Source of the DNA: Buxus sempervirens
Lineage: Eukaryota; Streptophyta; Magnoliopsida; Buxales; Buxaceae
Assembly (NCBI GenBank): GCA_947561395.2
Contig: OX387182.1
Location: 33,597,949 to 33,661,948 of the forward strand
DNA length: 64,000 nucleotides
Reading direction: 5' to 3'
Notes under the pieces: generated by a model
Told to the model about the DNA's origin: nothing
Seen by the model: only the letters and a program-made list of their open reading frames with translations
The model's database searches: none
Shown here: positions 3,066 through 54,650 of the stretch, one piece after another
Layout: every line of letters begins with the position of its first letter
Position numbering within the stretch: position 1 is the stretch's first letter
Program-made: the position numbers and the translations under genes

Positions 3066-4184
3066 TGAAAGAGTAGAGGACTACTCAATAGGTCCACGAT
3101 CTACAACAATTCAGAATTTAACAATGCGGAAACAATACACAGAGAATTATACGAGGAAACCTGGATCCAGATCCAGGAAAAACCTCGAGTCTATATGAGG
3201 CGACTAACCCTTCGAAAATCAACTATTGAATGAAACGACAATTACAAAGGAGTACACACTTAACCTTTACAATTGAACTCACTCAACAGCAATCCACAGT
3301 TCGAATCCACGAACTGCAACACAGCTTGAATCCACAAGCTACAGAACACGATCAGTCCAGATCGCAGACAATCACTCACCAGTGATCCACAGTTCGAATC
3401 CACGAACTGCAACACAGCTTGAATCCACAAGCTGCAGAACACGATCAATCCAGATCGCAACAATCACCTCAGAATCCACTGAGATGATCCAATGCAGTAG
3501 GAATCCACCTACGCATCAATCAAAGCCGATCACCAGTCCAGGCGATCACACGATCAGATGAAGTTCCGAATTGAAGAAGAATCCTCTACCTTCAATTCCA
3601 GGTGATCTATCTCAGATCTCCCCCTCACTCGATCGCCGACTCTTTAAAAAAGATTTGATCGAATCTCAAACACCTCAAGATTCGAAATCAAAATGATCCA
3701 AAAAAAGTCCCAATTAAAAATTACAACACGTCTATTTAAAGAATAAAACTCAGATCGTGTAGAGCGCTGGTGGCGTCGTGAAGCAATCGGTGTAGACGGC
3801 TGGAAGCTAACTCAAGTCCCGTTCAGAACAAGTTGAATCAGTTAAAAGCGCGCTGCCAGCGAGCTGCTAGCGGGAGAGTACGCGGCATGTGCACGGACCT
3901 TTCTTTCAAAACACTAATTCACTTATGCGCTGCCAGCGGGGTGGCAGCGGCGTTAATCTTCGCAAGTGCCTTTACAATAACATACTCTGTGTAGAAAATC
4001 TTTCATTTCATTGGGCTACCAGCGGCGTGGTAGCAGCGTGGTAGCTGTGTGGTAGCATCGTCTTCTTCTTCTTTACTAAATTCACTGAATTTTCATTGTT
4101 TAATCTGCACATCTTGAAGATTTATTAGAAGACATAATTTGTCAAACATTTGCCATAACAGGAGTGTGAGTTTTCACACTTACA
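3066..4184 (-). repeat. Copia 3' LTR
   Basis: An 1119-base LTR (TGAAAGAG to CACTTACA on the plus strand). It is nearly identical to 12119-13319 but has two rather than three copies of a 93-base internal unit. A minus-strand TATA-like TTTAAATAG lies at 3732-3740. The hairpin array corresponds to 3297-3547. The U3 carries repeated GCTGCCAGCG and GGTAGC words (3850-4060). Confidence 0.93.
3297..3547 (-). repeat. Shared-loop hairpin array, 3' LTR copy
   Basis: Nine consecutive small stem-loops, mostly with loop AATCCA or AGTCCA (plus strand), equivalent to the array at 12350-12693 but with one 93-base unit fewer. Stems include CAGTTCG/CGAACTG, CAGCTTG/CAAGCTG, CTCAG/CTGAG and GTAGG/CCTAC. Confidence 0.85.
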
Positions 4185-4198
4185 ATCTTCCCCTTGGC
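4185..4198 (-). promoter_or_regulatory. Polypurine tract of the Copia element
   Basis: On the minus strand the bases just before the 3' LTR read GCCAAGGGGAAGAT. This is a purine-rich tract in the position where plus-strand DNA synthesis is primed. Confidence 0.7.
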
Positions 4199-4553
4199 AA
4201 ATGCTTGACAACAACCTTAAAACAGTGTTTAATATCAAACTCAGTTAATATTGATTTCCATTTAAGAATTTTAAAACCACACTGATAAGGAGAGACACAA
4301 TGATTGTGAAGAATCCAGAATTTCATTCATTCACAAAAGGTATACAGAAATCAGAAACATATACAGTGTTCAAAAATTACAGTTTCTCCCCCTTAATCAT
4401 CACTCCCCTTTATACCTTCTTTCAGGAGAAACAAACAGAACACAACACAACAAAAAGTATCATATTCACAGCACAGCAAAAAAAATTTACAAGCAGCAGC
4501 AACAACCCAGCAACCAAGCAAAACCATCAATAGAAACATCAACTCCAGCAGCA
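4199..4553 (-). other. Copia noncoding tail before the 3' LTR
   Basis: AT-rich, rich in CA and AAC words. It lies between the extra frame and the polypurine tract. No coding signal seen. Confidence 0.6.
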
Positions 4554-5888
4554 TCATCCAAAAAACTCCCCCTTTCTAGAAGGTGGTTTGGGTTCCCAAG
4601 TCCTTGAGTAATGCTTGTATGCATCTTGGGATCTGGAGTGCAGCCAACAGAGTTTGTGATCCATCTCCAGCTGAGTCTTCCGAATGCATTCCAGAAAATG
4701 ATCTGCTTCATTTTGCATTCGTTGCTGAGCAGCAAAGTCCCTTTGTACCTCACCACATGTAAAATCAACATCCTTTGCCAATTTCTCCAGCCTCTCTTGG
4801 GTCTCTGATTTGAACATGCTCATCATGAGCATGTGAGACCTAACCTCAGAATTGAAAGCCTCTTGGGAGGCTTGCATGGAATTTAGTTTTTCCATAATTG
4901 CCACAGCATCAGAGCTGGACAAAGAGGACTGAGAAGAAGAGGGTTCAGAAGACACCAAACGAAAAGGATTTGCTCGTTTACTTCTGGTCAGAGTGGAGGA
5001 ATCAATGGGAGGTCTGGGATGAACGATCAATTCAGCCGGAGCAGGTAAGATTCCCTGGTGAATGCACATGAAAGAAATGAAAATCCCAAATGGAAGAGCA
5101 GCAGTCTTGGATTTTAGATTCCGAGACTGAAGGATTTGATTGAATATGATGGAGGGAAGACAAACACTGTCTCTGTTCCAGATGGCATGAAGAAGTCTTG
5201 CCCTAGAGTGAGAGATCTCTGAGTGATGATCAGATGGAACAAGAGAAGCACACACAAACAGATTCAAGATCCAGAGAAGATCTTGAAGAGAGCCATGAGG
5301 CATATAGTTGGGCTTATTCTTTATAGAAGTGGGAGCACCCGGAACTATTAGAGAAGAAATGATGGACTCCATAGGAGAATCAGTATGAGACTCAAGAAAG
5401 TTAAAGGAGGGAGAATCAACAAGAGGCAGTTCAAGAAGAGAGGAAATAAGCTCTTTCAAGAAGTCGAAAGAGATTCCCCTGACATAGGCTTTGACATAGC
5501 CTTGATTGGCAAGATGGAGATGATGAAGATTAGAATAAAATTCTTGAACCAGGGCCGGATATGCAAAACCACTGATTAAAGCAAATTTTTTCCAACCATT
5601 GTCCGAAAACAATGAGTAGAGAGGAGATTCATAAAATGACTCAAGCTTGATGGCCCTTTCTAGAAGAAGTGGCCTGTGCTTGAAGAACTCATTGAAATCA
5701 GATAAACCATTCCCCACAAATGGTTCAGAAGAATGAGAAGGGGACGGGGATCTCACTGGAGGAGAAGAGATAACAGGAGAGGACCTCACAGGAGGAGACG
5801 ATGTTGAAGGAGAATCAGTTCTCGACTTTCTCTTGAGAGGCATGGTGAAGAGAGAATTGAAAGAGAAAGAGCAAACAGACAGAAACAA
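4554..5888 (-). CDS. Env-like third ORF (putative plant transposon protein domain) of the Sirevirus-like element
   Basis: A continuous frame of 444 codons. A better start may be the methionine at codon 16 (MPLKRKSR, base 5843). The N-terminus is basic, then rich in Ser and Pro (about residues 15-55). Residues about 70-280 resemble the so-called putative plant transposon protein domain, known from Sirevirus and Athila third ORFs that are labelled envelope-like: LESFYESPLYSLF, then GFAYPALVQEFYSNL, then a VRGISFDFLKEL-like segment. The C-terminal third is a likely coiled coil (about 325-400). I see no clear signal peptide or transmembrane helix, so an envelope role is not supported by the sequence itself. 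It lies 1.2 kb after RNase H, so expression would probably need splicing or an internal start. Function is unknown. Confidence 0.75.
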   Translation of the reverse strand: MFLSVCSFSFNSLFTMPLKRKSRTDSPSTSSPPVRSSPVISSPPVRSPSPSHSSEPFVGNGLSDFNEFFKHRPLLLERAIKLESFYESPLYSLFSDNGWKKFALISGFAYPALVQEFYSNLHHLHLANQGYVKAYVRGISFDFLKELISSLLELPLVDSPSFNFLESHTDSPMESIISSLIVPGAPTSIKNKPNYMPHGSLQDLLWILNLFVCASLVPSDHHSEISHSRARLLHAIWNRDSVCLPSIIFNQILQSRNLKSKTAALPFGIFISFMCIHQGILPAPAELIVHPRPPIDSSTLTRSKRANPFRLVSSEPSSSQSSLSSSDAVAIMEKLNSMQASQEAFNSEVRSHMLMMSMFKSETQERLEKLAKDVDFTCGEVQRDFAAQQRMQNEADHFLECIRKTQLEMDHKLCWLHSRSQDAYKHYSRTWEPKPPSRKGEFFG

Positions 5889-7093
5889 CCGACAAACGAA
5901 AAAGCCCTAATGGCAGAACAATCTACCAAACCCTAGCGTAGAATAACGAGAGAAGATTCCTGAACTAGGAAGCAGAAAAAGAAGAAGCAGGATGAAGACA
6001 GTAAAAAAAAAAATTTTACCTGAACAGTAGACAGGAAGAAGGAAGGTGAAAATGACAGCAGCACAGGGACACGACAAGAGAAGCGAGAGGAACCGAAGAC
6101 AGGTAAAAAGAAACAGGGGTAAAAAAATGAATGCGATTTCACCTTTATATAGGAAAAAAAATACGCTGCCAGCGAGCAGCTGGCGACGTAGAAATAGGCA
6201 TGTGCCAAAGCAAGCTATACCAGAGAAGGCTACATGCACGCTTCTAGCGACGTAGAAGGTGCACATGCACACACAATGAAAAATACAGATTCAAGGCAAA
6301 AATTTATAAAAGATGTTTGAACTATTATTCATGACAAATTCATACATCAAAACACAAAGCTAAGATTTTAGCTAAACTAAAAATCAACCAGATAATCAAC
6401 TTATTCAATCCAAGAAGTACTTATCACAAAACTGATCTTGAAGCACCTATCAAAGTTAATTCAGATGTGGCACATTTCATATCAAAGAGCAAAATTTCCT
6501 TCATGGTTTCTCGTACTATAAATTTTCTTCAAGATATTGAGTACATATGCATATTAATGAATCAATGCTGGAGAGAAGAGAGCAACATTTTTTACTTTTA
6601 CACTTCATACATATGGAAGATTATTTCAGTGTAAACATTCTTGGAAAGTATAGCCATATCCCAACTTCATTTTGGTGGCTTTCGCACATCAGAGATAGGT
6701 AGCCTTTTCTGATCTCTTTTTCTTTTCTTTTTAAAGATGGCATTGACCCTTAAAAAACCTGAGTTTACAGTTCATTCCAAGAATATACCTTCTTTCTCTT
6801 TTTCTTTTTCAGATTTACAGTGGCTTTCACTCTAATCTCTATGGCAGCCATTTCCAAAACTTTTCTTTTCATAAAGGTGATAGCCCATAGATCCCAAGCT
6901 TTACCACACAATAAGCTTCAATACGTAAAGGTGTTTCAGACAAAGTTGCTGGTTAAAAATAAGACATTTCTGTCAATATGCATAGACTCAATCTTCCTGA
7001 ATACAGATTTTAGTAACAAGAACACACAAATTCATTTTGAACAGACATGTAAGACATTTTTCATCAAAATTAACTCAAAATAGAACCTGAATT
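5889..7093 (-). other. Copia spacer between pol and the third ORF
   Basis: About 1.2 kb without a credible coding frame. A pyrimidine-rich stretch (on the minus strand) near 5980-6130 could hold a splice acceptor for the downstream frame, but this is only inference. Short frames on both strands look like chance. Confidence 0.5.
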
Positions 7094-7813
7094 TCAGTTT
7101 TGAGAGCATACTCCTAGGGATTTCCTAAGAGTTTCAAATCTGTTCTGATCTAAAGGTTTAGTAAAAATGTCAGCCAACTGTTTTTCAGTAGATATATATT
7201 CAATCATAACAGTTTTGTCTTCAATCAACTCTCTTATAAAGTGATGCCTGATATCTATATGTTTGGTCCTTGAGTGTTGAACAGGATTCTTGGAGATATT
7301 TATGGCACTTTGATTGTCACAGAAGAGAATCATTTGATCTTGATCTAACCCATAATCAAATAACATTTGTTTCATCCATATAAGTTGAGTACAGCTGCTT
7401 CCTGCAGCAATATACTCAGCTTCAGCAGTACTTAGAGAAACACAGTTTTGCTTCTTGCTTAACCAGGCAATGAGATTATTACCCATGTAAAAACAACCAC
7501 CAGAGGTGCTTTTTCTGTCATCCATACACCCAGCCCAATCAGCATCAGTGTATCCAGTAAGATGTGGGTTTGTCTCTTTGGAAAACCAGATTCCCAGATC
7601 AGCAGTTCCATTAACATATTTTATAATCCTTTTTACAGCATTCAGATGAGATTCTTTAGGATTAGCCTGATATCTAGCACAAACTACCACACTAAAGCTT
7701 ATATCAGGTCTACTTGCTGTTAAGTACAGTAGACTCCCAATCATTCCTCTGTACAGGGTAGGGTCTATAACTTTTCCAGATTCATCTTTTCCAAGTTTTA
7801 AACTAGTACTCAT
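7094..7813 (-). pseudogene. Copia RNase H part of pol
   Basis: A 239-codon stretch with Copia RNase H hallmarks: TDADWAGCMDDRKSTSG, SLSTAEAEYIAA, CDNQSAINISKNPVQHSRTKHIDI and a C-terminal QLADIFTKPL. It begins with the end of the RT-connection segment (YRGMIGSLLYLTASRPDI). It degrades the RNA strand of the hybrid during reverse transcription. It is part of a broken polyprotein. Confidence 0.93.
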
Positions 7814-7900
7814 AGGAGTCCTAGCATGTTTAGCATAAGTTAAGCTGAATCTCTTAACAAGATTTCTTGAATATTTTGCTTGAGAGAAAAAAATTCCTTG

Positions 7901-8596
7901 TTAAGATTGATAAATCTGAAGACCTAAGAAAAAGTTCAGTTCACCCATCATACTCATCTCAAATTCACTTTTCATTAAGTCAGCAAAGGAGTGAGCATGA
8001 TTTTCAGAAGTAGATCCAAACACTATGTCATCAACATAGATTTGAGCAATCAACATATGTTTGGACTCTCTTTGAATAAAGAGAGTTTTATCCACATTTC
8101 CTCTCATAAAACCAGATTCAAGTAAAAAAGAGGTGAGTCTCTCATACCAAGCTCTAGGAGCTTGTTTGAGTCCATACAAGGCTTTGTTCAGTTTATAGAC
8201 ATATTTAGGATGATTTGTGTCCTCAAATCCTTTAGGTTGCTCTACATAAACCTCTTCATTCAGATATCCATTCAAGAATGCACTCTTAACATCCATTTGA
8301 AACAGTTTAAACTTCAAGTAACATGCAATAGACAACAGTAATCTGATTGATTCTAACCTAGCTACAGGAGCAAAGGTTTCATCAAAATCTATTCCTTCTA
8401 CTTGAGTATACCCCTGAGCAACAAGCCTAGCCTTATTTCTGGTTACTATCCCATTCTCATCAGATTTGTTCTTAAAAATCCACTTGGTTCCTATCACATT
8501 CAGATCAGAGGGTCTTTCAACCAATTCCCAAACATTATTTCTAGTAAATTGATTCAGTTCTTCATGCATAGCATTTAACCAAGAATCATCCAACAA
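7901..8596 (-). pseudogene. Copia reverse transcriptase part of pol
   Basis: A 231-codon stretch matching the Copia RT family (RVT_2): NVWELVERP and TKWIFKNK at the start, [54 protein letters not shown], and the catalytic YVDDIVFGS box (plus-strand bases about 8012-8037). It copies the element RNA into DNA inside the virus-like particle. The whole polyprotein is broken. Confidence 0.94.
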
Positions 8597-8704
8597 AGCA
8601 TCTTTATAGGATTTGGGCTCAAATTGAGATAAGTAGGAAGAAAATCTTACCTCATTCTGCAGTTGATGTCTTGTTCTTACTCCATCTGAAATTTTTCCAA
8701 CAAT

Positions 8705-11335
8705 TTACTCAGTTGGGTGGTCTTTGAGAGTTCTAATCAGAGGAATAACTTCATTACTTGGGGATGCATCTCTGAGTTCATCCTCTTCATCTACAGCCTG
8801 CAAAAATTCACTATCATTACCTTCATCATCTATTAGCACATTTATAGATTCCATTACAACAGATTTCTGCAAATTAAAAACTCTGTATGCTCTACTAGAA
8901 GAAGAATATCCTAGAAAAATTCCTTCATCACTTCTAGAATCAAATTTTCCTAGATTTTCTCTATCCCTTAAGATATAACATTTACTTCCAAAGACTCTGA
9001 AATATTTCAAGTTTGGCTGTTTTCCTTTCCAAAGTTCATAGGGAGTTTGTTTCCACCCAGATCTGATATAAACTCTGTTACTAATGTAACAGGCAGTGTT
9101 TATAGCTTCAGCCCAGAATTTTGTTGAAATTTTCTTGGCTATCATCATGGTTCTAGCCATTTCTTGTAAAACTCTGTTCTTCCTTTCCACAACTCCATTT
9201 TGTTGTGGGGTCTTAGGAGCAGAAAATTCATGTTTGATTCCTTGTTCTTCACAGAAATTGGAAAACATTTGATTTTCAAATTCTGTCCCATGATCAGATC
9301 TGATTCTAACAATCTTTCCTATTTGCAAGTTCTTTTCAACTTGAATTTGACAGCACAGATGTTTAAAACAGTTAAAACATTCAGATTTTTTTCTTAGAAA
9401 ATCTACCCAGGTATATCTGCTGTAGTCATCTACAGCAACAAATATATATCTCTTTCCTCCCAGACTTTCAGTCTTTGTAGGTCCCATTAAATCCATATGA
9501 ATCAGTTCTAATGGTCTTGATGTTCCTACAATGTTGGTTTTCTTGTGTGTGGCTTTGATTTTCTTTCCTTGATTGCAAGGACCACACATTCCTTTCTTTT
9601 TATTATTCCCAAACTTGGGAATTCCTCTAACCAACTCAGACTTAGAGATTTTTGACAAATCTCTATAGTTAATGTGGCCAAGTCTTCTATGCCACAATTC
9701 AATTTCATTGCATATGGAGGATTTTAAAGAACACTCATTGTTTCCAATGATTCCATAGCAATTGTCACTTGTTCTTACACCTACAAGAACAGTTCTACCA
9801 GATTTATCCAAAATTTTGCATTCTTTTCTGGTAAAGTTTACAAATAATCTGGAATCACATAACTGGCTAATGCTAATCAAATTTGCCTTTAACCCAGATA
9901 CAAATAAGACATCTTTCAGACAAACACCATTTGGACCATTTACAGTTCCTTTACCTTTAACTTGGGAAGTGCTTCCATCACCAAATGTAACACTTCCACC
10001 AAAATATTCTTCAAAGGTACTGAACATAGCCTTATGACCACACATGTGTCTTGAACAACCACTGTCCAAGTACCACATGTTGACATCATGAGCTTTTAAA
10101 GCTACATGAACCACATTAGCAACTAAGGAATCTTTTCTTACCCAAATCTGTTTTTCAGGAGTCTTCTGAAAAGTACCTTCATCAACTACTTGAGTTTTTG
10201 AAGGAAGCTTCTTTGACAGATTTGTGACTTCCTGATTTAATGTTTCAGTCAATTTTAACAGGGAGTCAAATCTGTTGTATAAGTCCAGGGACTGACTTTG
10301 ATTCACTTTTCTCATATTATCAAAATATCCATCAGGAAAACCATGCAGTGCATAACACTTTGGTCTTATATGACCCTTTTTATTGCAGTGATGGCATACA
10401 GGTATGAACCTATGTTCAGAAAAATCAACATTTCTAGATTTGCCAGTATTTCTAAACTGTACAGATTTAGATTTCTCAGAAGTTGAAGGTTTACCTGTTG
10501 GTCTTACTTCTCCAGCAGAAATTTTCTGTGAAGATTCCTTGTTTTGATTACTTACACTCATTCTCTTTTCAGCAGAATTTGAGCTTTCAGGAACTTCCTT
10601 TGAAATTGATTCCTCATTAATTTGATGATTACCTGCAGAAGAATTTGAAGCATTAGATTTACTTGAATTTGAAATTTTCTCAAGTTCAATCACTTTACCT
10701 TGAAGTGCAGAAATCTGAGCTTCCTTTTCTTTTAGTTTTTCAGTTTTTTCAGTTAAAGAAGTTACCAGAGAATCTTCTTTGGCATGTCTTTCAAGTAACT
10801 TCTGGTTTATTGAATCTATTTCTACAAGAGCTTTATTTTTCTCTGTTTCTGATTCGTTCAATTTTTTACTCAGTTTCTTGACTTTCTTCTGAGCTCTATT
10901 GAATTCCTTATAGAGCTGATTGTAGGCTTCTTGTAGTTCTTCTTCATCATCTGATAAAGTCTCTTTATTATCTCCTGCAATTCCAGAGATTGAACTACCA
11001 GAAGAGGATGAGTAAAAGGAATTGAAAGCAGTAAAATTAGCAGAAATATCCTCATAGGATTGTGAAGAATTATCAGTGTTACTGTCATCCCAAGTAACCT
11101 GATAATTAGTCTTTTTCTTTTTATCCTTTGAGGGACAATCAGATGCAACATGTCCAAATCCTCTACATTTGTAACATTGGACTTCATCATTCTGAGAAAA
11201 GTTCTTCTCCTTTCTTGGATCAGACATTTTCTTATCAGATCTCCTATTAGATCTGTCCATGGATGATGAAGAATTGGATTGTCTCTTTTTAAACATTTTC
11301 TTAAACTTTTTGGCTAAGAGAACAAGTTCATCCAT
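8705..11335 (-). pseudogene. Copia gag C-terminus, protease and integrase
   Basis: An 876-codon frame. Domains in order: a CCHC zinc knuckle CYKCRGFGHVASDC (residues about 55-68), a long Glu/Lys/Ser-rich coiled-coil segment (about 125-230), a second Cys/His cluster CHHCNKKGHIRPKC (about 315), the aspartic protease core DSGCSRHM (about 425), the pre-integrase HHCC domain with LWHRRLGHINYRDL (about 550), and the integrase core with HMDLMGPTKTES, VDDYSRY, SDHGTEFEN and PQQNGVVERKNR (about 615-735). The C-terminal integrase domain follows (PYELWKGKQPNLKYFRVFG). The double Cys/His arrangement with a long coiled coil fits Sirevirus-like gag. It belongs to a broken element. Confidence 0.93.
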
Positions 11336-11437
11336 ATCAACATCAGAATTATCTGATTCTTCAGTATTTACAGATTTTACAGATTTTAGAGCTATTCCTT
11401 TACTTCTTTTAGGAATATTCAGATCTAGCTCATAAGT

Positions 11438-12058
11438 CTATAAAGATCCTACCAGATCTTCAATTCTCATGTTATCTACATCTTTTGCCTCTTGAATTGC
11501 AGTTACTTTAGGTCTGAATTTTTCAGGCAAAGATCTTAAGATTTTTCTAATAACCTTTGATGTAGAGATTTTTTCTCCAAGATTAAAACTAGAATTAACA
11601 ATATCTGAGAGTTTAGCATAAAACTCATCAAAAGACTCATCATCTTTCATATACAAAGTTTCGAAAGATGTAGTAAGTCTTTGAAGTCTGGACAGCTTGA
11701 CAGCTGAGGTTCCTTCATAAGTGACCTCAAGAATGTCCCATGCTTCCTTAGCGACTTCACATGAGGAAATTCTCCTGAATTCCTCAACACTAACAGCACA
11801 AAATAAGGCATTCATTGCCTTGTTGTTCCATCCACATTGATCAGATTCAGTATTAGTCCACTGATCATGAGGTTTAAGGATCACAACACCTACTTCTGTT
11901 GTGATCTCAGGTGGATGATAACAATTACAAACCGAGAGCCAGACACGCTCATCGATTGATTTCAGGTAAGCTCTCATTCTTGCTTTCCAGTAAGAATAAT
12001 TGTTACCTTCAAATAATGGAGGTCTAGAGGCAGATCCTCCTTCTTTTCCAAAATCCAT
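11438..12058 (-). pseudogene. Copia gag N-terminal part
   Basis: A 206-codon frame that starts 60 bases inside the primer site and 5' LTR. It holds the N-terminal Copia gag domain (PPLFEGNNYSYWKARMRAYL) and the UBN2-type core (AKEAWDILEVTYEGTSAVKLSRLQ, ESFDEFYAKLSDIV, KILRSLPEKFRPKVTAI). It would form the capsid of the intracellular particle. Confidence 0.92.
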
Positions 12059-12103
12059 GCTATAGATCTAGATCACACTTTGTATAGCAATTCAAAGTGA
12101 ATA

Positions 12104-12116
12104 GGCTCTGATACCA
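12104..12116 (-). promoter_or_regulatory. Primer binding site, initiator tRNA-Met (Copia)
   Basis: The minus strand reads TGGTATCAGAGCC two bases inside the 5' LTR. This is complementary to the 3' end of plant initiator tRNA-Met and is the standard primer site of Sirevirus and many other Copia elements. Confidence 0.95.
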
Positions 12117-12349
12117 CTTGAAAGAGTAGAGGACTACTCTATAGGTCCACGATCTACAACAATTCAGAATTTAACAATGCGGAAACAATACACAGAGAAT
12201 TATACGAGGAAACCTGGATCCAGATCCAGGAAAAACCTCGAGTCTATATGAGGCGACTAACCCTTCAAAAATCCACTATTGAATGAAACGACAATTACAA
12301 AAGAGTACACACTTAACCTTTACAATTGAACTCACTCAACAGCAATCCA

Positions 12350-12693
12350 CAGTTCGAATCCACGAACTGCAACACAGCTTGAATCCACAAGCTACAGAAC
12401 ACGATCAGTCCAGATCGCAGACAATCACTCACCAGTGATCCACAGTTCGAATCCACGAACTGCAACACAGCTTGAATCCACAAGCTACAGAACACGATCA
12501 GTCCAGATCGCAGACAATCACTCACCAGTGATCCACAGTTCGAATCCACGAACTGCAACACAGCTTGAATCCACAAGCTGCAGAACACGATCAATCCAGA
12601 TCGCAACAATCACCTCAGAATCCACTGAGAGGATCCAATGCAGTAGGAATCCACCTACGCATCAATCAAAGCCGATCACCAGTCCAGGCGATC
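12350..12693 (-). repeat. Shared-loop hairpin array, 5' LTR R/U5
   Basis: Twelve successive perfect or near-perfect stem-loops. In plus-strand terms, loop AATCCA occurs with stems CAGTTCG/CGAACTG (12350-12369, 12443-12462, 12536-12555), AGCTTG/CAAGCT (12376-12393, 12469-12486, 12562-12579), CGATC/GATCG (12588-12603), CTCAG/CTGAG (12614-12629) and GTAGG/CCTAC (12643-12658). Loop AGTCCA occurs with CGATC/GATCG (12402-12417, 12495-12510) and GATCACC/GGCGATC (12674-12693, one pair G-U in the minus-strand RNA). In the transcript the loop reads UGGAUU or UGGACU. Confidence 0.88.
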
Positions 12694-12877
12694 ACACGAT
12701 CAGATGAAGTTCCGAATTGAAGAAGAATCCTCTACCTTCAATTCCAGGTGATCTATCTCAGATCTCCCCCTCACTCGATCGCCGACTCTTTAAAAAAGAT
12801 TTGATCGAATCTCAAACACCTCAAGATTCGAAATCAAAATGATCCAAAAAAAGTCCCAATTAAAAATTACAACACGT

Positions 12878-12886
12878 CTATTTAAA
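12878..12886 (-). promoter_or_regulatory. TATA-like box of the Copia 5' LTR
   Basis: Minus-strand TTTAAATAG, about 185 bases upstream of the hairpin array. Its position fits a U3/R border. No other TATA-like word in this LTR fits as well. Confidence 0.5.
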
Positions 12887-13324
12887 GAATAAAACTCAGA
12901 TCGTATAGAGCGCTGGTGGCGTCGTGAAGCAATCGGTGTAGACGGCTGGAAGCGAACTCAAGTCCCGCTCAGAACAAGTTGAATCAGTTAAAAGCGCGCT
13001 GCCAGCGAGCTGCTAGCGGGAGAGTACGCGGCATGTGCACGGACCTTTCTTTCAAAACACTAATTCACTTATGCGCTGCCAGCGGGGTGGCAGCGGCGTT
13101 AATCTTCGCAAGTGCCTTTACAATAACATACTCTGTGTAGAAAATCTTTCATTTCATTGGGCTACCAGCGGCGTGGTAGCTGTGTGGTAGCATCATCTTC
13201 TTCTTCTTTACTAAATTCACTGAATTTTCATTGTTTAATCTGCACATCTTGAAGATTTATTAGAAGACATAATTTGTCAAACATTTGCCATAACAGGAGT
13301 ATGAGTTTTCACACTTACACAGAG

Positions 13325-26340: not shown

Positions 26341-26600
26341 AGGGCCTTCTTGACAGCTATGCTATCCCGTTTAGGGGAAGGGTAGCTGAAGCTGTGCTAT
26401 CCCAAACACGAGAAGGGTAGCCCAAGGGTGGTCGTCTTGAAAGCTGTGCTATCCCGTGCATGAGAAGGGTAGCCGAAGCTGTGCTATCTCAAACACGAGA
26501 AGGGTAGCCCAAGGGTGGTTTGTGAGCTGTGCTATCCTGTGTATAGGAAGGGTAGCTCGAAGGTGAGCTGTGCTATCCCGTGGATGGGAAGGGTAGCTCG
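26341..26600. repeat. Minisatellite 1 (GCTGTGCTATCCCG units)
   Basis: Five to six copies of GCTGTGCTATCCCG followed by GAAGGGTAGC. Each copy is a small hairpin (GCTATCC against GGGTAGC). Confidence 0.85.
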
Positions 26601-26639
26601 AAAAGGGATTGTTGTGTATAGCAAAATGCATTTGAAAAT

Positions 26640-27010
26640 TTTTAGGGTGTTGTGAATGACACAGTAATTTTTGAAATCTTGGTTTTGCTGTCGTGGATGG
26701 CAAATGGAATATTGAAAATATTTTATTGGCTCTATGCCATGAATGGCACATGGATTTTTTTGAGAACTAGTAAGGTGCCATGGATGGCACCATGTGCTTG
26801 AAAGCTTTACTGCACCGTGAATGGCACTGTGAATTTTGAAATCTCTCTTTCTCTTTTGTTTTGTGCCGTGAATGGCAAAGGAGTTTGAAAACTTTATGAT
26901 TTGTGCCGTGCAAGGCACAGTGGTTTTGAAAATTTTAGGACTGTGCCGTGCATGGCATAATGATTCTTTGGAAATTTTGTGAGTGTGCCATGGATGGCAC
27001 AAGGATTTTG
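26640..27010. repeat. Minisatellite 2 (TGTGCCGTGNATGGCACA units)
   Basis: Seven or more copies of a hairpin GTGCC...GGCAC spaced about 50-65 bases apart, linked by AT-rich sequence with TTTTGAAA. Confidence 0.8.
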
Positions 27011-27304
27011 AAAGATCAGTTTAAAACACTTTTTGGAAATCTTTTCTAAGGTTTTTCCATTTGATGGCGAAATCTGAGATCATGCTGTGACTGACAAACT
27101 TTGAAATCATTGCTGTGAAGTTGGGAAACCATTGGAATTGGTTCCAAATGTCATGCTGTGGATGGCATTGCATCAGTTGAAAAGAATGTATGCCACAAGA
27201 AGGCAATTCGATGTTTCTCCTTAATGACAGCTCCATATAACCATGGAAAGTGGTTTATCGGGGTCATGGGAAATCAAATGTACGTCATGAAAGATGATTT
27301 TGAT

Positions 27305-27482
27305 GTTGGCCCAGAGGCCACTTTAATCTGTGCTTTTTGAAAAACAAAGTGCACCTCGGAAGGCGGCTCGATGTACGCCCGAAGGCGATTTAATGTATGC
27401 CCAAAGGCACTTTGATGTACGCTCGGATGCGATTTGATGTATGCCCTGAGGCACTTTGATGTACGCCCAAAGGCGATTTGAT
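27305..27482. repeat. Minisatellite 3 with alternating compensated stems
   Basis: Units of about 24 bases, GATGTAYGCCCRAAGGCRMTTT. Stems alternate CGCC/GGCG with TGCC/GGCA; a GGCC/GGCC form occurs at the edge (27309). The stem changes on both sides together. Confidence 0.85.
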
Positions 27483-34538: not shown

Positions 34539-34542
34539 TCTC

Positions 34543-38266: not shown

Positions 38267-40604
38267 TGTGAGACACGGGAAAAAATCACCCGAAGATGAT
38301 CATCCCCTCCGTCAGCACACGGGCTCAACGCAAATTGGGAGAGTCGCCACCATTCAGAATTTTGGGGTGTGAATGGACACCAAAAAGTTCAAAAATATGC
38401 AAAAATAGCTAAAAGGCAAATTCTAGGGTAAAAATAACCCTACTTGAAAATCAAATCCAGAGATGGGTAAGGGGATTAGATTATAAACGGGGGAAGGTGT
38501 TAGGCACCCCCATTCACCCACACAAGGTGGTTGCCAAGTGTTTGTTCATGCAAAAAAGATAAGAAAGCTTGCTAAAAATCATTAAAAACATTGGAAAAGA
38601 ATTAAGCCAATGTGTGATGTTTTCACAAGGGGAATCCACAGGGATTCTAGATCCTCTTTTATGTCAATATCACTTCTGGAATATCACAAAAAGATGGAAG
38701 TCAAAGCACAAGTTGCACAAAACCAAGTTGAGGCAAATCCAGGAAATTTGGTAAAAAGCAATGCCATTTGTCTTGAAATCATTCAAATCCAATTTTAAAT
38801 TGAACCAAACCAAATCCATTTGAAAGATTATGGTAAATAATAGTCTCGTGCAAAATTTCAATTAATTCCGGTTGAAATCCTAAGAGTTATGGCTCATTTA
38901 AAGTTGCTGCCGGAGAAAATCAAAAGTAGCAAGTAGGCAACTTTGGAAAATCACCTAGAAAAATCTACTCCATAGAAATCCGTGAAATTTGGTGTCAATG
39001 AAGTCTGTATGGCCATCATTCAAAAGAAACTAGCCACATACAAAAACTCATTCGGATGTGCCTTGGGTGACTTCCCGAACAGGCCCCAAGGATCACAGAT
39101 TGACCCAGAAAAGTGCTGTTGAGCAGTTCTGAGTAAATCTGCTCTCCACGACACAATTTAAATCAAAAAATTATGAAATCAATTGGATTTAAAAATAGAC
39201 TTATAAAGGAGTGCCCAGAAACAAAAATCACTCGAATCGGACTTAAAACGAACACATGGCGCTCCATCGAAGTGACAAGTTCTGTATTTGAACCTGAACT
39301 GTCCAATCAACTTCGACAGAGAGGTGTTAAAAATCCGCTTGATAGAAATTAATGAAATTTGGTGGACAGAAACTAGACAGCCTCACCTTTCCCATGGTGC
39401 TGGAATCACTCCAAAATTCATCCGGACGATGAAGTTATGAGTGTCTGAAGTCGGGGTACAGTTGCTGTCAAGTTAAGCCCTTTTTGGAGAAAAACAATGC
39501 AAAACTGTGACAAAGTGTGTGTAATTCGTGCAAGATGAATACAAAACCTTTAAAAACCTTTTAAAAACATTCCAGAATTGATTGAGGCCATTTATTTGAG
39601 ATTTATCACAATGAAAGTAATAAATCCCCAAATGTGAGCCTATCCCACCAAAATAGTGCTATGTATGTGCAAGTGTGAAAAACCATACAAGATCAATACA
39701 ACAACATAGCATGCATACATATTCATCAAAATAAGGTTCTAAAACAACCTAGGGTTCCGTTCCATTATCATTTCCCTTTGATCTCTCTCCCCGTTAAACA
39801 CGGTTCTTCAAGATAATCATGGGGTACTTTGAATATGAAACGGTTTTCAATCATTCAAAAGGCTTATGCTACATAGGTTCTAGCACTAGGGTCAATCCCC
39901 AGTCTCGTTTCTCCTAGATCCCGCCTTCACGTTTTACGGCTAGGGGGAGTCTTGAGATACTTTGAGCCAGGGAAGGGTTTTCACACACAGATCAATGCCT
40001 TATTCTACAGAAAGGTAGAAGAAGAGATCTAGATCTAAAAATGTAAAGACAAAAATTAAAAAGAGGTTTGAGGCTTACCTGGGTTCTGGAAGCACTTCCG
40101 CAGTGGTTTCCCTCTTCTCTTGGAGCTCTTCTTAGCGAGAATTCAAGGCAAGAGTTAATGGCCTTTTGCTTAAGGAGGAGCCTCCTATTTATAGGCAAAG
40201 GCTAGGGTTAGGATTGGTGAGAATGGTAGACACAACATAATGTCTATAGCCCACCAACCTTAACCCTAAGGCTATTTCCGAGATTTCCTTTCATTTAATG
40301 AAGGATATGATGGTAAAAAGTGATTTCTCTCGGAAGACCCTAATTTTGAGCAAAACTAATGTATCCGGCATGTCAGGCCGGATACACAAGTGTCTTAATG
40401 TATCCGGTCTATGCTGCCGGATACACTGAGGTCTGCTTGTATCCGGCCTGTTCCATTGGATACGAAGAAAAACACTTGTATCCGGCCTGAGTTGCCGGAT
40501 ACAAGGAAAAAACTCATTTTCCCAAATTATGTGCTGGCCTTCAAGGAGATAAGGATTTTTTATGATTATTGATCATTTTGACAGTGCAATTTGGGGTGTT
40601 TACA
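38267..40604 (-). mobile_element. Solo LTR, Tat/Ogre-type (second family)
   Basis: 2338 bases, plus strand TGTGAGACAC to GGTGTTTACA, with a perfect target duplication ACAAG (38262-38266 and 40605-40609). It holds GAGTCGCCACC and GGGGGAAGGTGTTAGGCACC near its 3' end, as in Tat/Ogre LTRs, but the rest differs from the other copies here. A minus-strand TATA (CTATAAATAGG, 40187-40197), a donor-like CAG|GTAAGC (near 40077) and four GTATCCGG palindromes (40360-40505) are present. Confidence 0.87.
40360..40505 (-). repeat. GTATCCGG palindrome cluster
   Basis: Four inverted repeats with arms GTATCCGGC/GCCGGATAC and differing loops, upstream of the minus-strand TATA box. One is identical over 21 bases to a palindrome at 43683-43709 in another LTR family. 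Confidence 0.9.
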
Positions 40605-41600: not shown

Positions 41601-43631
41601 AATAAAATATTAATATAATCTAAAATATCTAATAAAAAATCAAAAACACATGTGTAGAATGCGTTTAGGCGAATAAAAGTTCTAAAGAATAAAATAATAT
41701 TATACTTAAATATCCAACTATTTAAATTAAATAAAAAATAAATTGAAAATGAAAAATCACATGTGAGAATTCGGCCAAGGCAACACCTGTCAAGGCGGAT
41801 AAGATTGAATTTAATTCGATCTTATCCACTTGTATCTGACATATATAGTCAAATACAAGTAAAACATGGTGTATCCGACATATATGGTCGGATACACATG
41901 TAAATATGTGTATCCGACCAATATTGTCAGATACAAAATATCTCACCTATAAAAAGGGGGCAGCAGCCCCATTCTGATGGTTGGCTGGCCCCCCTCTCCC
42001 TTCTCCCCCTTTGCCTTTGACGACCCCTCCTCTCCTCTTCCCACTTCATTCCAAGATTAACAAACCTCTCCATAACCCCTTTTTCCTCTTTTGATCCAAC
42101 CAAAGCCCCTTTAAAGCCTTCTCTCATTCCTTCTTGGCTAATCTAAGGTCTTAATAAAGGCTAGAAGGAGTTTGGTGCATGAAGAAAAGGTGCCTTTACT
42201 GTTGGTGGTGCCTCCAAGGGGTTCAACACCCTTCAAGTGTAACCCTAAACCACAAGGTGAACTCCTTTGTGTCTTTTATTCAAAATATGTGAGAATGAAT
42301 GGAATATGAGTAGTTTGGTATTTCTTATACTCTGTACATACTGTTTTTCTTTATTATGACATATTTGCTCACTTTCTCTTCAATTTTTTCTCATTTCTAA
42401 GCACAAACAACCTCCCTTGGAAAGGGGAAAGCTTTGTGGGGCTCCAAGGGAGGACAAGAGGTCCTTTTATTTGGTTTTAAGTGTTCCAAAGTCTTTTTTT
42501 TTTTTTTTTTTGCTGCTGTTTTCTTCCCTTTTGCTGCTGTCTTCACTTTGTTTAAATGGGAGCTTGTTCACCTCTATACATATTCCGATGTTCCCCTCCA
42601 TACTGTGCGCGCGTGGGAAACGCGGCACGGGGTAATTCGGAGTCGCCACCGCCTGATGGGGTGCAGGCGGACACCTGGGTGCCTAATCTTGTCTTAATTA
42701 GGGCTTTTGGTTTGCGGCTTGAGATTCTAAGTTTGGTTCTCGGTTGCGGTCTGGGGAAGTCCGTAGACACCCCAGACCACCCCGTCGGATGACGGGTCCC
42801 GTGGGTTCCCTGGTCTGAGTCAACCTTATTTTGGTTTCTCACCCGATTCTTAATCCGGCATGCCATTAGGTTAAGTCTTGTCGGGACCACCTGAGTGGTG
42901 TGGATCCCTTTAGTTGATTTTATCTTTGCTTAACTTAAATTGTCTGAGTCTGATTGGGTGGGCCCCGTTGGAAGGCCCACGGTGTCCTTGGTGGGTTTGG
43001 GTAAGCCCATGTGCCCATGTGGGCCTCTGTCCAAGCCTAGGAGGCCCTGTGGGCTTTGGTTAAGTGTGTTGGTTTTATTTAGTTTGTTCAAGTTGGATAC
43101 TTAAGTGATTTCCATGCAAGAAGCAGGCCGGCATTGATTTGCCGGCCCCTGGGTGGGCCCCCATGTTGGTTGCCAAAATGTCTTTAATTTATTTTATTTA
43201 AATTCACCCAGGTGGGTTGGATGTTGGGCTTGGGGCCCGTAGTCCAAATTTGGGCTCAAAAAGCCAAGTTCCTTGGGGCTTAGGGTTTGCACCCTTCCTT
43301 GGTTATGTTAATGGGCTTTGGCGGGCCCGACAGGCCCTAGCCTATGGTCTCGGCCAAACCATGCAATTCATATGTCCATTACACATTACAGGGCACGGGT
43401 GGGCCGCATTGGGTTTGGCCCGCCCGGTTCAAATGGCTCATTTTACTTAAGTTGTTTAATTAGCATGCTTTGGGGTTCATTAGGCTCGGTGGGCCCCGTT
43501 GGAAGGCCCACTAGTGTATCAAGTTGGACCGGTGGTCCAGGTCCCAAGTTGGGTTTCCGGGTGTTGGTTCAGTGGTTTTGGTTCAAATTGCTCCAAAAAT
43601 TCGGCAAGGATCAAAGTTATACAAAAAGACA

Positions 43632-43709: not shown

Positions 43710-45487
43710 TGAAGTGGCCTTTTTCAGAGTTCTGCCCTTTGGGATGGTTTCCAGGGGTTCCTAGGAGGTTTCTACTAGCTGTGTGGGCCCTTGAGAGGCC
43801 CACCTTGGCTCGGGTTTGGGGGGAAGCATCCTAGTTGGCCTCCTTTGTGGTTTCCAGCGAAGACAAAGGGAAAAAGGGGGAGGGATGGGGCTGTTGCCAC
43901 CTCGTCTCCTAGCCGTCCACAGCAGCCAAACAGGGACCAATGTGTCCCTGTTTTGGTCTCTTGTTTCCAACAAAACAACAAGCTTAAGGGAGGGCACCTA
44001 TTCAGACTAAACCGGCGAGGCGGAGGCGCCTCATATGTGCATTATCGAAGGATAAAAGCCTGCTGTAGGCGAAGGTACAGCACCAAACCAAGGAAAGGAT
44101 AAGCATGCAACAAGGGTGGATATACATGGGTATTGGGGGTGGGGTTGGGCGACTAAACGGGTGAGCAACTTGACGGAACAGCCGCTGTCCCGGGGGTTTC
44201 ATGCATGCTACAACCAGCATAGGTGCGGAGGGAGGGGATCATGCTCGCATGCATATGCAAATATAACAAATGGTGGGGGGATTAGGGGAACATGCTGGTA
44301 TACATGTACAAATAATTAAAGAACAACAAATAAGCAAACAAATCATGCATCTAGACCAAACAAACCATCAAGCAAATTCTAAATGTATGCATGGAGATAA
44401 CCTGCCGAGGATGGAGGTGCTGCTGCTGCTTCCAGCAGCAGCTCAGGTATGCCACACTCATGGATAAAAACAGCAAATTCACAGAAAAAAAAAAAAAGAA
44501 AGGTGCATTCCCTCCTAATGACAAATAGCAAGCAAGCACATGACCTCCAAAGAGGAGAAGACAATAAAAAACTAGAGCAAAGCTGCGGCCACCAACCCAC
44601 TAAAAAAACATAGAAAAAGATGAGAAGAAAGAAGAACTGGGAAAGGCATGAGGGCTGGTATATGAGTACATTAGATTGTAACTAAGAAGGAACATGCTCC
44701 TTCTGAAAAATACTTAAGATGAGCCCAGGGACAGCAGCCCGAGGACACTAAAAAGGGGGGTAAAAATAGACTCCCATGCTTCCCTAGCAACCCTACGTGG
44801 ACTCCCTACCTAGGGTGGCTTGCATGCAATGAAAAGGATAGTAAGTGCATGGTTAAGCCACTACGGGAATGCTTATGCCAAGAAAGAAGAAAATAGTAGA
44901 ACAAAGACAGTAAAAAAATCTGAAATTAATATATGATGAATACAACCTGATGAGGAACCTTACCTGGAGGTTCTCGGCTCTTCTAGGGAGGTGGAGACAC
45001 TTCCTTGAGGTCGGACAGTTGCTGGAGGCTCCCTCTCTAGCAGCTACAGCAGGTTCTCCTTCTTGTTGGGTTGCAAGTGAAGGAGGAGGAGGAGAAGGAG
45101 AGGCGGTGGAGCAACTCTAGGGTGGTGTGGAGAGGTGGTGGAGGCAAGGGAGGTTGAGAAGAGAGGGATTCGGAGAGGCAAAAGTGGGCCAAGAAGCTGC
45201 AAGGCCGGAAAAATGACCCAACCCTTGGAAAGGGGGCTGCTGCCCCCTTTTATAAAAAACTTAATGTATCCGGACTTGAAGTCCGGATACACTATATATC
45301 ATGTGTATCCGGACTCCAAGTCCGGATACATTAAGTTGCCTTTGTATCCGGACTTGGAGTCCGGATACAAAACATAATAATTGGCAAAATTGATTTCCGC
45401 CGCGAATTTGTCGGAGAATCGGCGCAAATCTTGCCGAGCAAATCTTCGTATCCGGTCTTGGAGTCCGGATATACACAAGGGTATGTG

Positions 45488-49873: not shown

Positions 49874-52252
49874 TGTTAGCACCTGATTTTTGTACCCCCA
49901 AAATAAAGAAAAATGAAAAGTCAAACCCTGAGGGGATCAAAAATTGACTTTTTGATTCAAGTGAATTTGGCCATCAAATTTCATCTCATTGGAAAGAGCA
50001 TTTCGACACGATTCTAACGCAACCGAATTTGCTGGAATCGGAGTCCAAACGAGAAAGATATGAGCTGGTCAAACTTTTGGGGAACAAAAAGTTGACTTTT
50101 TGCTCGACCCCAATTCAGCTGCCAAACTTGACCCTAGTGGACAGGTGGTTCCGAACCGGTTCCAACGACACTAAGTTTGCTCAAATCGGACACCGAATGA
50201 AGAAGTTACGAGCAGTTGAAGTTTCAAAAAAACTGCCCATGTGGCAAAAAGGGCAGCAAAAATGCAACAAACCAATAAGATAAATAAGATAAATGTGTTT
50301 AATAATATTTTAATAAAGAGAATCTCGCTTTTTAATAAAATAATCGTAAAAATCGGATAAGAATCTTGCAAAAAACCAAATTGAATAAAGTTTTGAAGTC
50401 CAAACATTTAAAAAACGTGCTGGACCGTATTTCAATTACGGGTAGGGCATGCCCGTATTTGAAATACGGGCAAGATTCTCTAAGCAGACACGCGTCGCTG
50501 TACGGCGAAACACGCGTCCCGTACGGCGGATTCGCGAGATTTGTAAATATTCGTTTTGTGCCCGTATTTGAATTACGGGCAAGGCAGCCCGTATTTGAAT
50601 TACGGGCAGGGTATGCCCGTACTTCAAATACGGGCACGTCCCTTCTTGCCTATAAATAGAGAGGCCACCCCCCTCATTTGAAGAAGCCATAACTGAAGGC
50701 CTCCTCCCTCTCCCTTTCCTGCTAGCCACGTCCAAGCTCTGCCCAGTTGCCGCCACCCCTAAAACCAAATCTTTTTTGTTCCCAAAGTACCCCTCCCTCA
50801 CCAAAACCATGTCTAAGCTTTTCTTTTTTATCCTTTGAATATCAAGGATCCACCAAACCTCTGCCAAAACCATTCCAAGAAATCCCAGAGGACGCGGAAG
50901 CGCTGCCCAATTCTATCGGAATCAACAAATAATATTACTGTAAGTATGTTAAATTTTATGATATAATGTTATTGATTTCAATGTTTCTTCAAGTTTCTTT
51001 CCTACATTTTATTCTTATAATCACTAATCCCATTGCTGTTTTTTGAATGACATGAGAGACCAACTTCAGGAAGATGGTCATTATAAAAAAAAAAGGAGAT
51101 AGAGGAAGAAGGAAGAAATGATCTAAATGACACTTTAATCAACCAGTTTAACTACTCATTTTGTTTCTTTGAAAATGTATGTATTCTTGTAATATCTCCT
51201 CCTCTCTCTTGAATAAGGGATGTGGTTGGTTGAACAAACAAAAGAAGGAAAGAAGCTTAAGACTCAAAAGACATCAAAGGAGAAGAAAAGATGGCTTTGG
51301 AAGCCTAATGGAGCCAATACAATGTTTTGAAGAAACCCAAAAATTTAACCAAGGTATCTGGAACACTTGAAGGGGCCACGGAATTGATCCCAGGAAGAAT
51401 CGGCAGCAAAAGTGCAGAATAGGAGGCGCCCGTAAACTCAGAACGGTCCCGTCTAGACCGTGTTTACTTCACGGGCAAGCCCAACCGGAATTTGTCCACG
51501 GGCAAGGGTAGACCGTATGAAAAATACGGGCAATTGTAAAATAACCTAAAAAATGTAACTTTTCGGCCCGGTTGGATCTGTTCCGACCTGAACCGGCCCC
51601 TTTAACAATTTGGGCTATCTTCAGCCCACTTTTGGACCATGGGCCCAAATGAGCCCACCATGACCTCCTTTTGGCCCACATAAGTGGTCCACCTTAGAAT
51701 GGCCTATACCAGGCCTGTTTTCAACAAACAGGCCCAGGCCCTTTGAGCTTTGGCTAATGGGCCAAATCCAAGCCCACTAAGCCCATTTGTATCTGTAAAT
51801 AGCCTAAGTAAATAACCAAATGGGTTACCCAATAACCCAACTGGGCCCTAGGCCCAAGCATGGCAACCCACGGGTCTTCCAACGGGACTCGGGTCTGACC
51901 CACTTCACTTAAATAAATAAGAAGATAAAATCAAATAAAAAGGGACCCACACCTCCAAAGGGCCCCGCCAGACCCAATAAGCAGCATGCTGGTCTAGGAA
52001 GGGTGAACTTGACTCAAAAACCACGGAGACCCGAGGGACCCGTCAAACCAACGGGGCGGACCGGGGTGTCTTAAAGCTTCCCCGGACGTAACCGAGGACT
52101 TAGCTAGATCTCTAATAAGCCGCAGACCAGACTTAGACCCGGATAGGGCAAAACCGTGTCTGCCTGCACCTCTCAGGCAGTGGCTACTCCGAATGTCCCG
52201 AGGCACGCACTAAAAGTGCACCCGGAGTGCGATCTAGATTTAGGTGCGCACA
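49874..52252 (+). mobile_element. Solo LTR, Tat/Ogre-type
   Basis: 2379 bases, TGTTAGCACC to GGTGCGCACA, with a perfect target duplication CTAGG (49869-49873 and 52253-52257). Two repeat units about 148 bases apart (49987, 50135), CCCGTA/TACGGG palindromes (50420-50640), TATAAATA (50651-50658), a donor-like ACT|GTAAGT (50940), a second palindrome cluster of the same type (51425-51535), and a diverged GGGTCTTCCAACGGGACTC box (51872). Confidence 0.9.
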
Positions 52253-52462: not shown

Positions 52463-53940
52463 TGTCTTAGCACCTCATTTTTGCACCCTCTAGGAATACA
52501 AAAAATGAAAATCCTAACTAAAAAGTCAAACTCTGAGGGGTCAAAAAGTTGACTTTTTGATCTGATGCAAATTAGCCACCCTGCTTCTTCCCTTTGAAAA
52601 CGAGATTCCGACACGATTCTAACGCAACTGAGTTTACTCGAATCGGAGTCCGGATGAAGAAATTATGAGCTGGTCAAACCTGGGGAAAGCAGAAATTGCC
52701 TTTCTGCTCAAGCCCAATTCAGCTGCCCAACTTGATCCCAAAGGGCAGAAGATCCCGACACGCTTCTGACGTAACTGAGTTTGCCGGAATCAGAGTCCCG
52801 GAGAAGAAGATATAAGCAAAACTGGATCCCGAGACGCAGTTTTGCACTTCTGCTAAAAACCTGAATTTGCTGCCAAACTCTAACTCAGTGGATAATGAAT
52901 CTTGACCTGATTCCAATGCCACTAAGTTTGCTAAAATCGGACATCAGATGAGAAAGTTATGGCAAGTCAAAGTTTCAGAAAAATTGCCCATGTGGCGCAG
53001 AAGCAAAAAAGGACAAAACAAATAAAAATCGAGAATAAAATAATCATTTTTGCTCATGCGCAATCTCAGCAAATCTGCCAGCTGGCACTATGGATAAGGA
53101 TGGATCCGCATAGTATGTACGGACAGGGCACGTCCGCACATACTATGCGGACGCGCACGTTTTAATTGCGCGGATTTCAAATCTCTTCCCATTTTGACGA
53201 ATTTTGACGATTTTCTTATTTATTTAAATCTCTTCCCATTTTCAAATCTCTTCCAATTTTGACGAATTTTCTTATTTAGTGTCCTGACAGCACACTAAGT
53301 GCGGTCAGGACATGTTTTTCTCTATAAAAAGGGCCCACAGCCCCCATTGTCCAAGGTTCTCTCCTCCACCCTTCATCCCCACAAGACCTTTGACGATATG
53401 TCCCTTTCACCCTAATACCCCACCAAATTCCCAAAATACCCTTGAAATTCCTTCCTTCTTCTCTTCTTTCCTTCCTATTCATTACAAGAGGACAAGAGGA
53501 GGATTTTTGGAGTCAAAGAAGGCTTCCAAGTTGCCGTTCACATCATCTAGAACACCATCACTTCTTTCAAGAATAAAGGTAATTCCAAGGTTAGTCTTCT
53601 TGTCAACTTTTGTTTCATATATGTAAAAATGAGTGTGTTACAAGCATGGCTTGGTCTTAAACTACTTTGAGCACTCTTTTATCATGATTTCTCACCTCCT
53701 CTTCTTTTGCAAGTAATCGGAGTCCCCATGGTAAAGGGGAGACTCCGTACAAAAATGGGAGGAGAGCTATTCTTGTAGAATAAGGAAGTGTCACTCAAGC
53801 AAGCTCCCTTGTGTTTATCCTTTTGCTGTTATTTTTATGATAGGCGTTTGTCCTCTTTCAACATCTGCTGTAACCCTAATTTATCACCCTCTTCCCCTTC
53901 CCTTATGGAGTTATTTGTTGTTTCCTGCTTACACAATAGT
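52463..53940 (+). mobile_element. Tat/Ogre-type LTR, 5' part
   Basis: Starts near TGTCTTAGCACCTC. Three units about 147 bases apart (52592, 52739, 52885), two large palindromes (14-base arms at 53105-53151; TGTCCTGAC/GTCAGGACA at 53280-53312), TATAAAAA (53323-53330), and a donor-like AAG|GTAATT (53579). A Gypsy solo LTR interrupts it at 53941. The continuation after 56438 is short and unclear. Confidence 0.72.
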
Positions 53941-54529
53941 TGTAACGCCCCGGATCCGTGTTGTTCATTAAAGATATAACACGTCTCACGGAGGTTAGGC
54001 AAGGATCGTTAATCAATTTATGATCGCTGGATAATCATACATCTATAACCTAACAGAGTGCACATTTCCATTTATGCAATATTGTAACATTTAAACTGAA
54101 CTGAAATCATATGGTTCATCCCCAATTACTTTAATACATCTCAATTAATTCAAGTTCTCAAATTCGGAACAGATAACCTACAAGTCTAAGGAAGGTAATA
54201 GTAGTCTTCCTCCCTATATGCCTCAGCAGGATCTACCCCAGTAATCGCCTCACCACGAGTATCTGAAAAAATAGAACAGCAACAGAGTGAGATACGAATA
54301 TCTCAGCGAGTAGCACATGCATGCAGAAATAGTTGAATCACATTTTAAAACTATGCATCGACAACACTACAATACGTTTAAACAACCAACATCAATTTCC
54401 CAAGTTCAAGTCAAACAAATCACATCTCAGTTAAATACAATAACACATCGATTGGTCAATGTCATGACTATCGTTTGGTTGATAAATTAAACATGCCAAG
54501 TAGACACTCCACACCTCCATGTACACAGT

Positions 54530-54650
54530 TCCGGCCTACTCAGGGTTTCGGATACTCTGAAATGACGGCCTACTCAGGGTTTCGTCATCCAATGCAGGCC
54601 TACTCCCCGGGTTTCTGCATTGACAACCAAGCCTACTCAGGGTTTCTGGC
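54530..54650 (-). repeat. Same-loop hairpin array in Gypsy solo LTR
   Basis: Three clear stem-loops and one weak one around GCCTACTCAGGGTTT: TCCG/CGGA (54530-54552), ATGACG/CGTCAT (54562-54588), CAATGCAG/CTGCATTG (54590-54622, loop slightly longer), and CCA/TGG (54627-54648). Confidence 0.85.

Follow-up and report, generated by a model that had tools for sequence, protein, structure and literature searches.

Hairpins recur in several unrelated LTR retrotransposons of this Buxus sempervirens locus, which raises the question of whether they obey a single rule, and whether selection or a mechanism of formation keeps their stems paired. The initial annotation had proposed one design rule for all of the arrays, a constant loop or flank on compensated stems, and had named two possible causes, selection for hairpins and template switching inside quasi-palindromes. 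The window, the whole stretch of 64,000 nucleotides analysed here, spans positions 33,597,949-33,661,948 within one contig and contains chiefly LTR retrotransposons; the genome searched comprises 676.5 Mb in 247 contigs. Two rules were found instead of one. In the first, a constant loop is carried by unit-specific, self-complementary stems; it is observed in arrays A and B and, more weakly, in two further Gypsy-type LTRs (C and D). In the second, palindromes with a constant stem lie upstream of TATA-like boxes (26345-27020, 40355-45480 and 50440-50645; arrays E, F and G).

Hairpin density and the elements of the window

The features that were compared are listed in order of position.

76..3062, plus strand: C LTR, Gypsy-type
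1975..2065, plus strand: C array, loops ATGTGTAATC; unit 1 reads ATGGGTAATC in most other copies
3066-13319, minus strand: element A, CAGAG flanking on both sides
3066..4184, minus strand: A 3' LTR, Sirevirus-type Copia
3285..3690, minus strand: A leader array of the 3' LTR, loop UGGAYU on differing stems, 93-base unit twice
3728..3740, minus strand, second copy at 12886: A TATA-like TTTAAATAG, upstream of the array in element sense
12118..13319, minus strand: A 5' LTR, next to which comes the primer binding site TGGTATCAGAGCC
12335..12835, minus strand: A leader array of the 5' LTR, 93-base unit three times
26345..27020, minus strand: E arrays, constant-stem repeats upstream of a TATA at 26052 (minus)
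27305..27482, no strand assigned: E3 minisatellite with GCC/GGC stems, one outer pair of which alternates
40355..40510, minus strand: F1, TGTATCCGG palindromes upstream of a TATA at 40195 (minus)
41820..41945, plus strand: F2, TGTATCCGA palindromes directly upstream of a TATA at 41946 (plus)
45255..45480, minus strand: F3, TGTATCCGGACT palindromes directly upstream of a TATA at 45256 (minus)
50440..50645, plus strand: G, TGCCCGTA palindromes directly upstream of a TATA at 50649 (plus)
53941..56437, minus strand: B solo LTR, Gypsy-type, ATAGT on both sides
54515..54670, minus strand: B array, core AAACCCUGAGUAGGC on four differing stems
56815..57300, plus strand: D array with the core TGTACT, some of its units paired (units between 56801 and 57300)

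Hairpins were defined by a perfect stem of at least 6 and a loop of 3-20, and the whole window was compared with ten local dinucleotide shuffles. The hairpins in the window are real: 391 were counted against 151-185 across the ten shuffles, and 84 against 7-23 for stems of at least 8. The density controls for single regions were shuffled sequence and other regions within the 64-kb window. The LTRs had been expected to be denser in hairpins than shuffled sequence. With 20 shuffles per region, this holds for the A LTRs (28 hairpins against 5.8), the F region (57 against 18.4), the G region (40 against 10.2), E (15 against 7.8) and B (11 against 5.5), and it does not hold for the LTRs of C (5 against 5.8) and D (3 against 1.9). 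Of two other control regions, a Gypsy pol has 9 hairpins against 9.7, and the stretch at 58-64 kb has 16 against 12.9. The internal region of element A (4185-12117) is also hairpin-rich, with 58 against 25.6 in 20 shuffles.

The locus has further repeated structure. Four places on the same contig, 33452598, 33454015, 33463161 and 33477057, match sites in the window from a constant distance of about 147.23 kb upstream. Three of the four pairs tested are at 99-100% identity or equal score, which points either to a large duplication of recent date or to an artefact of the assembly. Tandem repeats of 147-148 bases occur at 16069-16726 and 46189-46467, and single copies that match them at about 73-84% lie at 22879, 40885, 49916 and 52469.

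Leader arrays with one loop and differing stems

Element A has reading frames for Copia gag and pol (gag, integrase and RVT_2), with a CCHC zinc knuckle inside the pol ORF. We class it as Sirevirus-type because it carries the marks given in the account of PMC2829016, namely the primer binding site, several polypurine tracts and an inverted repeat around the last of them. The 2 kb that precede the 3' LTR contain four polypurine-tract-like matches (391, 227, 210 and 11 bases from the LTR), and the terminal tract is enclosed by the inverted repeat TGTCAAGCATTTGCCA ... TGGCAAATGTTTGACA, whose right arm is within the 3' LTR and which is complementary at 15 of 16 positions by eye.

The Copia LTR arrays that had been marked at 3297-3547 and 12350-12693 are present. 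In element sense, their units read GCAGTTCG-TGGATT-CGAACTGT, GCAGCTTG-TGGATT-CAAGCTGT, GTAGG-TGGATT-CCTAC, CTCAG-TGGATT-CTGAG, CGATC-TGGAYT-GATCG and GATCGCC-TGGACT-GGTGATC. Pairing of the arms was scored over 8 positions, for each unit with its own arm and with the foreign arms of sister units, and the permutations that reach the observed sum were counted. Own arms in A pair at 6.69 and foreign arms at 2.96, a sum reached by 4 of 40320 permutations, and the identity of arms between units is 0.34. Two more TGGATT, one at the array edge to the right of the last unit and outside the stretch scored, the other farther out, lack matching arms. The units appear as separate hairpins in the minimum-energy fold, and the sense strand folds better than shuffles in both LTRs (z -7.4 in the 3' LTR and -6.6 in the 5' LTR). 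The antisense strand is as exceptional (z -8.8 and -11.3), and folding therefore cannot separate RNA from DNA. Low change rates in the stems and loops of A were dropped as evidence, since the copies had been chosen as best hits of the array itself and flanks outside the query were counted in the columns for the rest. The 93-base unit occurs twice in one LTR (3279-3467) and three times in the other (12332-12613) of the same element, so the number of units changed during or after one insertion.

The Gypsy solo-LTR array that had been noted at 54530-54650 is likewise present, with the core GCCTACTCAGGGTTT in 4 units, one of which has a longer core. The four units are built around the 15-mer AAACCCTGAGTAGGC. 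The core has 11,578 exact copies in the genome (5801 and 5777 on the two strands), with none for the reversed control; places were taken from the first 100 listed among the 11,578. Own arms pair at 6.50 and foreign arms at 3.50, which is reached by 1 of 24 permutations, the smallest possible share, and arm identity between units is 0.40. Across a sample of 33 arrays, taken from the window and 50 retrieved loci, the units keep their positions, and three unusual stems around the B core in other contexts (L019, the second site of L011, and L086) are complementary too. Among 31 arrays, a set that leaves out L086 and the second L011 site, copies compared in pairs differ on average by 0.064 in the loops, by 0.080 in the stems and by 0.132 in the spacers; the constancy of the loops is inflated because the copies were found by their exact loop, an advantage that the stems do not share. 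Compared with shuffles, the B array shows no better folding (z -0.67). Its fold resolves three of the four units, and in two of them the constant core forms an inner helix of 3 base pairs.

An asymmetry of wobble pairs in B was considered as proof of selection at the RNA level and rejected. C>T changes exceed G>A changes in the stems (0.068/0.031), and the same strand bias is present in the loops (0.046/0.022) and the spacers (0.063/0.041). The excess of G.U over A.C in the stems, 2.2, equals the bias in the loops (2.1; 1.5 in spacers), so this excess is mutational.

For the Gypsy LTR array at 1984-2026 with the loop ATGTGTAATC, two clear units stand and the third has an A.C mismatch. Own arms pair at 5.83 and foreign arms at 4.17, which 2 of 6 permutations reach and which is not significant, and the array folds no better than shuffles (z -0.97). 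Array D, absent from the initial annotation, sits in a third Gypsy-type LTR around 56442-57795. Its own arms pair at 4.50 against 3.61 for foreign arms (583 of 40320 permutations, significant), and it is half decayed, with only 4 of 8 units scoring at least 5. LTR C and the upstream LTR of a Ty3/gypsy gag-RT-RNase H element at 31008-34433 match at 86% over a stretch of 418 bases. LTRs B, C and D may belong to the lineage known as Tekay/Del-type chromoviruses.

The constant loop and the self-complementary stems in A and B are thus direct observations, and nothing in the leader arrays is more strongly conserved than the loop. The arrays of A and C are downstream of TATA. For A, the TATA-like TTTAAATAG at 3740 and 12886 indicates that the array belongs to the leader and not to the promoter. 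We infer that the A and C arrays lie in the transcribed leader (R-U5), the transcription start being itself an estimate, and the B and D arrays would likewise lie in a transcribed leader downstream of TATA.

Constant-stem palindromes upstream of TATA-like boxes

Palindrome clusters of Tat-type LTRs, a label for the F arrays that we keep from the initial annotation, had been included under the same rule. They do not follow it. Own and foreign arms pair alike in F3 and G (8.00 and 8.00 in each), E1 (5.17 and 4.77) and E2 (5.78 and 5.44); these scores cover E1, E2, F3 and G. The stems of E, F3 and G are constant, and one shared rule for all arrays was rejected. A shared mechanism had also been invoked for the convergence of unrelated families, but there are two kinds of array and they occupy different parts of the LTR, since E, F and G lie upstream of TATA. 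With the sense strand assigned from the TATA-like boxes, the folds of E, F and G reach z scores of -4.6 to -14 on that strand.

In the account of PMC2829016, the RM boxes of Sireviruses are clusters of palindromes in LTRs that adjoin the promoter and are near-identical within an element, with a kept stem whose core is CGG-CCG in 12 of the 13 elements listed. E, F and G resemble them in layout, having constant stems (as scored in E1, E2, F3 and G) upstream of TATA, and are most likely DNA-level promoter palindromes. The arrays of A and C differ from RM boxes as described there in being downstream of TATA, and those of A-D differ in keeping the loop while the stems vary. In A, the TATA-like box is at 3740 on the minus strand with the array downstream of it, and an arm identity of 0.34 between units is not that of near-identical CGG-CCG palindromes. 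In maize Sireviruses, CACCGGAC palindromes and miRNA-like structures of transposable elements are described in PMC10760457. Secondary structure is concentrated in Copia LTRs there as here; one palindrome is repeated in that case, and the account, as far as it goes, presents no rule of constant loop and variable stem.

The leader arrays could also act as DNA, either as binding sites downstream of the promoter or as cruciforms. The two strands of A fold equally well, and the A loop contains GGATT, which we take to be the core recognised by type-B response regulators. Palindromic repeats are also common cis-regulatory motifs in LTRs according to PMC2829016 and PMC10760457. However, a reader of a short duplex needs no matching arms that differ between units, and the A and C arrays are downstream of TATA. 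We consider action as DNA unlikely for the leader arrays.

The E3 minisatellite at 27305-27482 had been cited as compensated, and one compensated pair is indeed found, with C-G in three of five units and T-A in two. It is organised as a 44-base dimer in tandem, so this pair perhaps arose in a single event. Such tandem organisation, together with the two and three copies of the 93-base unit in the LTRs of A, would fit hairpin clusters that are mainly products of duplication, in which a few ancestral hairpins were multiplied with little function. Duplication alone is nevertheless insufficient, as arm identity between units is low (0.34 within one A unit, 0.40 in B) yet complementarity is kept, and we regard this origin as distinctly unlikely. 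The F3 palindrome region is interrupted at about 45488-45841 by CAGTGGCGGAAC...GTTCCGCCACTG, flanked on each side by GGTATGTG (by eye). The insert looks like a MITE of what we assume to be the hAT type, with an 8-base target duplication.

Selection, template switching and a possible role in packaging

Template switching in quasi-palindromes, during reverse transcription or replication, would rewrite one arm from the other and keep stems perfect without selection. The mechanism has been published for RNA genes, where hairpins with perfect stems and compensated changes are described (PMC8794818). The perfect stems are alike here, but two-sided changes are absent from the young copies. The paired stem changes that had been expected between such copies were sought in 68 rows (28 of A, 27 of C and 13 of F), each a best match. 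There are 48 changed cells, which represent 37 distinct stem changes, and none is two-sided (at most 7.8%, 95% upper bound, if changes are independent). As the copies are best matches and most of the changes probably arose after insertion, this is only a limit on template switching at reverse transcription. Inverted loops were not found either among the 33 B arrays, where 75 loops are in sense and 0 in antisense orientation.

Four pairs with a two-sided change were observed in older B copies, and for two of them one-step intermediates are in the sample: unit 3 pair 2 (C-G 28, T-A 1; intermediates T-G 1 and C-A 1) and unit 4 pair 2 (C-G 19, T-A 1; intermediate T-G 5). The other two are transversions. 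Unit 1 pair 2 (A-T 26, C-G 1) has no intermediate in the sample, and unit 2 pair 2 (C-G 13, A-T 10) has neither A.G nor C.T there, which speaks for template switching. The stepwise changes in units 3 and 4 speak against it, and it leaves the constancy of the loop without a reason. The 37 stem changes and 75 loops do not support template switching as the main cause, and we judge it very improbable.

Selection on hairpins, the other option raised at the outset, fits the leader arrays better. Conservation of the loop is not protected by template switching and the stems vary yet remain complementary, which is the pattern expected of RNA hairpins read by a protein. We estimate at about one half the probability that the leader arrays are RNA hairpin arrays under selection, acting presumably at the RNA level. 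The loop would be read by a protein and the stem would merely present it, while differing stems would keep neighbouring units from mispairing. The likeliest reader would be the element's own Gag, through zinc-knuckle RNA binding in genome packaging or dimerisation, and Gag on many loops could form a multivalent packaging signal. Gag as the ligand is a guess, and another RNA-binding protein is the alternative.

The arrays of B and C are enclosed by splice-like boundaries.

54263..55836, minus strand: candidate intron in B, CAG/GTGAGT ... polypyrimidine-CAG, contains the array
946..2741, plus strand: candidate GC-AG intron in C, AAG/GCAAGT ... CAG, contains the array

Common to both is a hairpin 321-322 bases before the LTR end (GAGAUA-UUCG-UAUCUC with a UUCG loop in B, GAGAU-GUAA-AUCUC with a GUAA loop in C), followed by a polypyrimidine stretch and CAG. 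This combination was seen in 36 distinct contexts (18 of B and 18 of C) from 80 loci scanned, several of which overlap. Upstream of this combination, the donor-like CAG/GTGAGTAGCA, with varying preceding bases, is found in 16 of 26 B arrays and AAG/GCAAGTAG in 19 of 26 C copies; the pattern is absent from the other 10 and 7, respectively. Splice-like boundaries are thus conserved in the B and C LTRs, and on this sequence pattern we propose LTR-internal introns as candidates that would be spliced. Since the arrays lie within them, only unspliced, genome-length RNA would carry the array. None of the literature titles searched deals with constant-loop arrays in the leader of an LTR or with an intron located in such a leader, which is a statement on titles and not a claim of absence from print.

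These features may be combined in a tentative and rather doubtful proposal: two superfamilies of plant LTR retrotransposons would have independently evolved multivalent leader arrays, with one loop on many orthogonal stems, for genome packaging, and in Gypsy the array would lie in an LTR intron, such that splicing separates messenger from genome. Hepatitis B virus reportedly has dispersed packaging signals, many stem-loops with an RGAG loop motif read by the core protein. The leader arrays are similar to such signals of RNA viruses in that many stem-loops share one loop motif; the signals are dispersed there and form a dense LTR-leader array here, and we do not claim membership of that class. 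Retroviruses are said to package unspliced RNA. As there and in BARE, for which separate RNA pools are described (PMC3735527), the RNA that serves as genome has to be distinguished from RNA that is spliced or translated. The BARE intron is at the end of gag in that account, whereas the candidate intron of B and C is inside the LTR leader.

Separating leader arrays from promoter palindromes corrects the idea of one cause behind LTR hairpins. Packaging in plant retrotransposons and the division between messenger and genome RNA are little known, with BARE as one case (PMC3735527). If the leader arrays are RNA signals read by a protein, they would provide short, countable and mutable targets for testing packaging, in families with thousands of copies.
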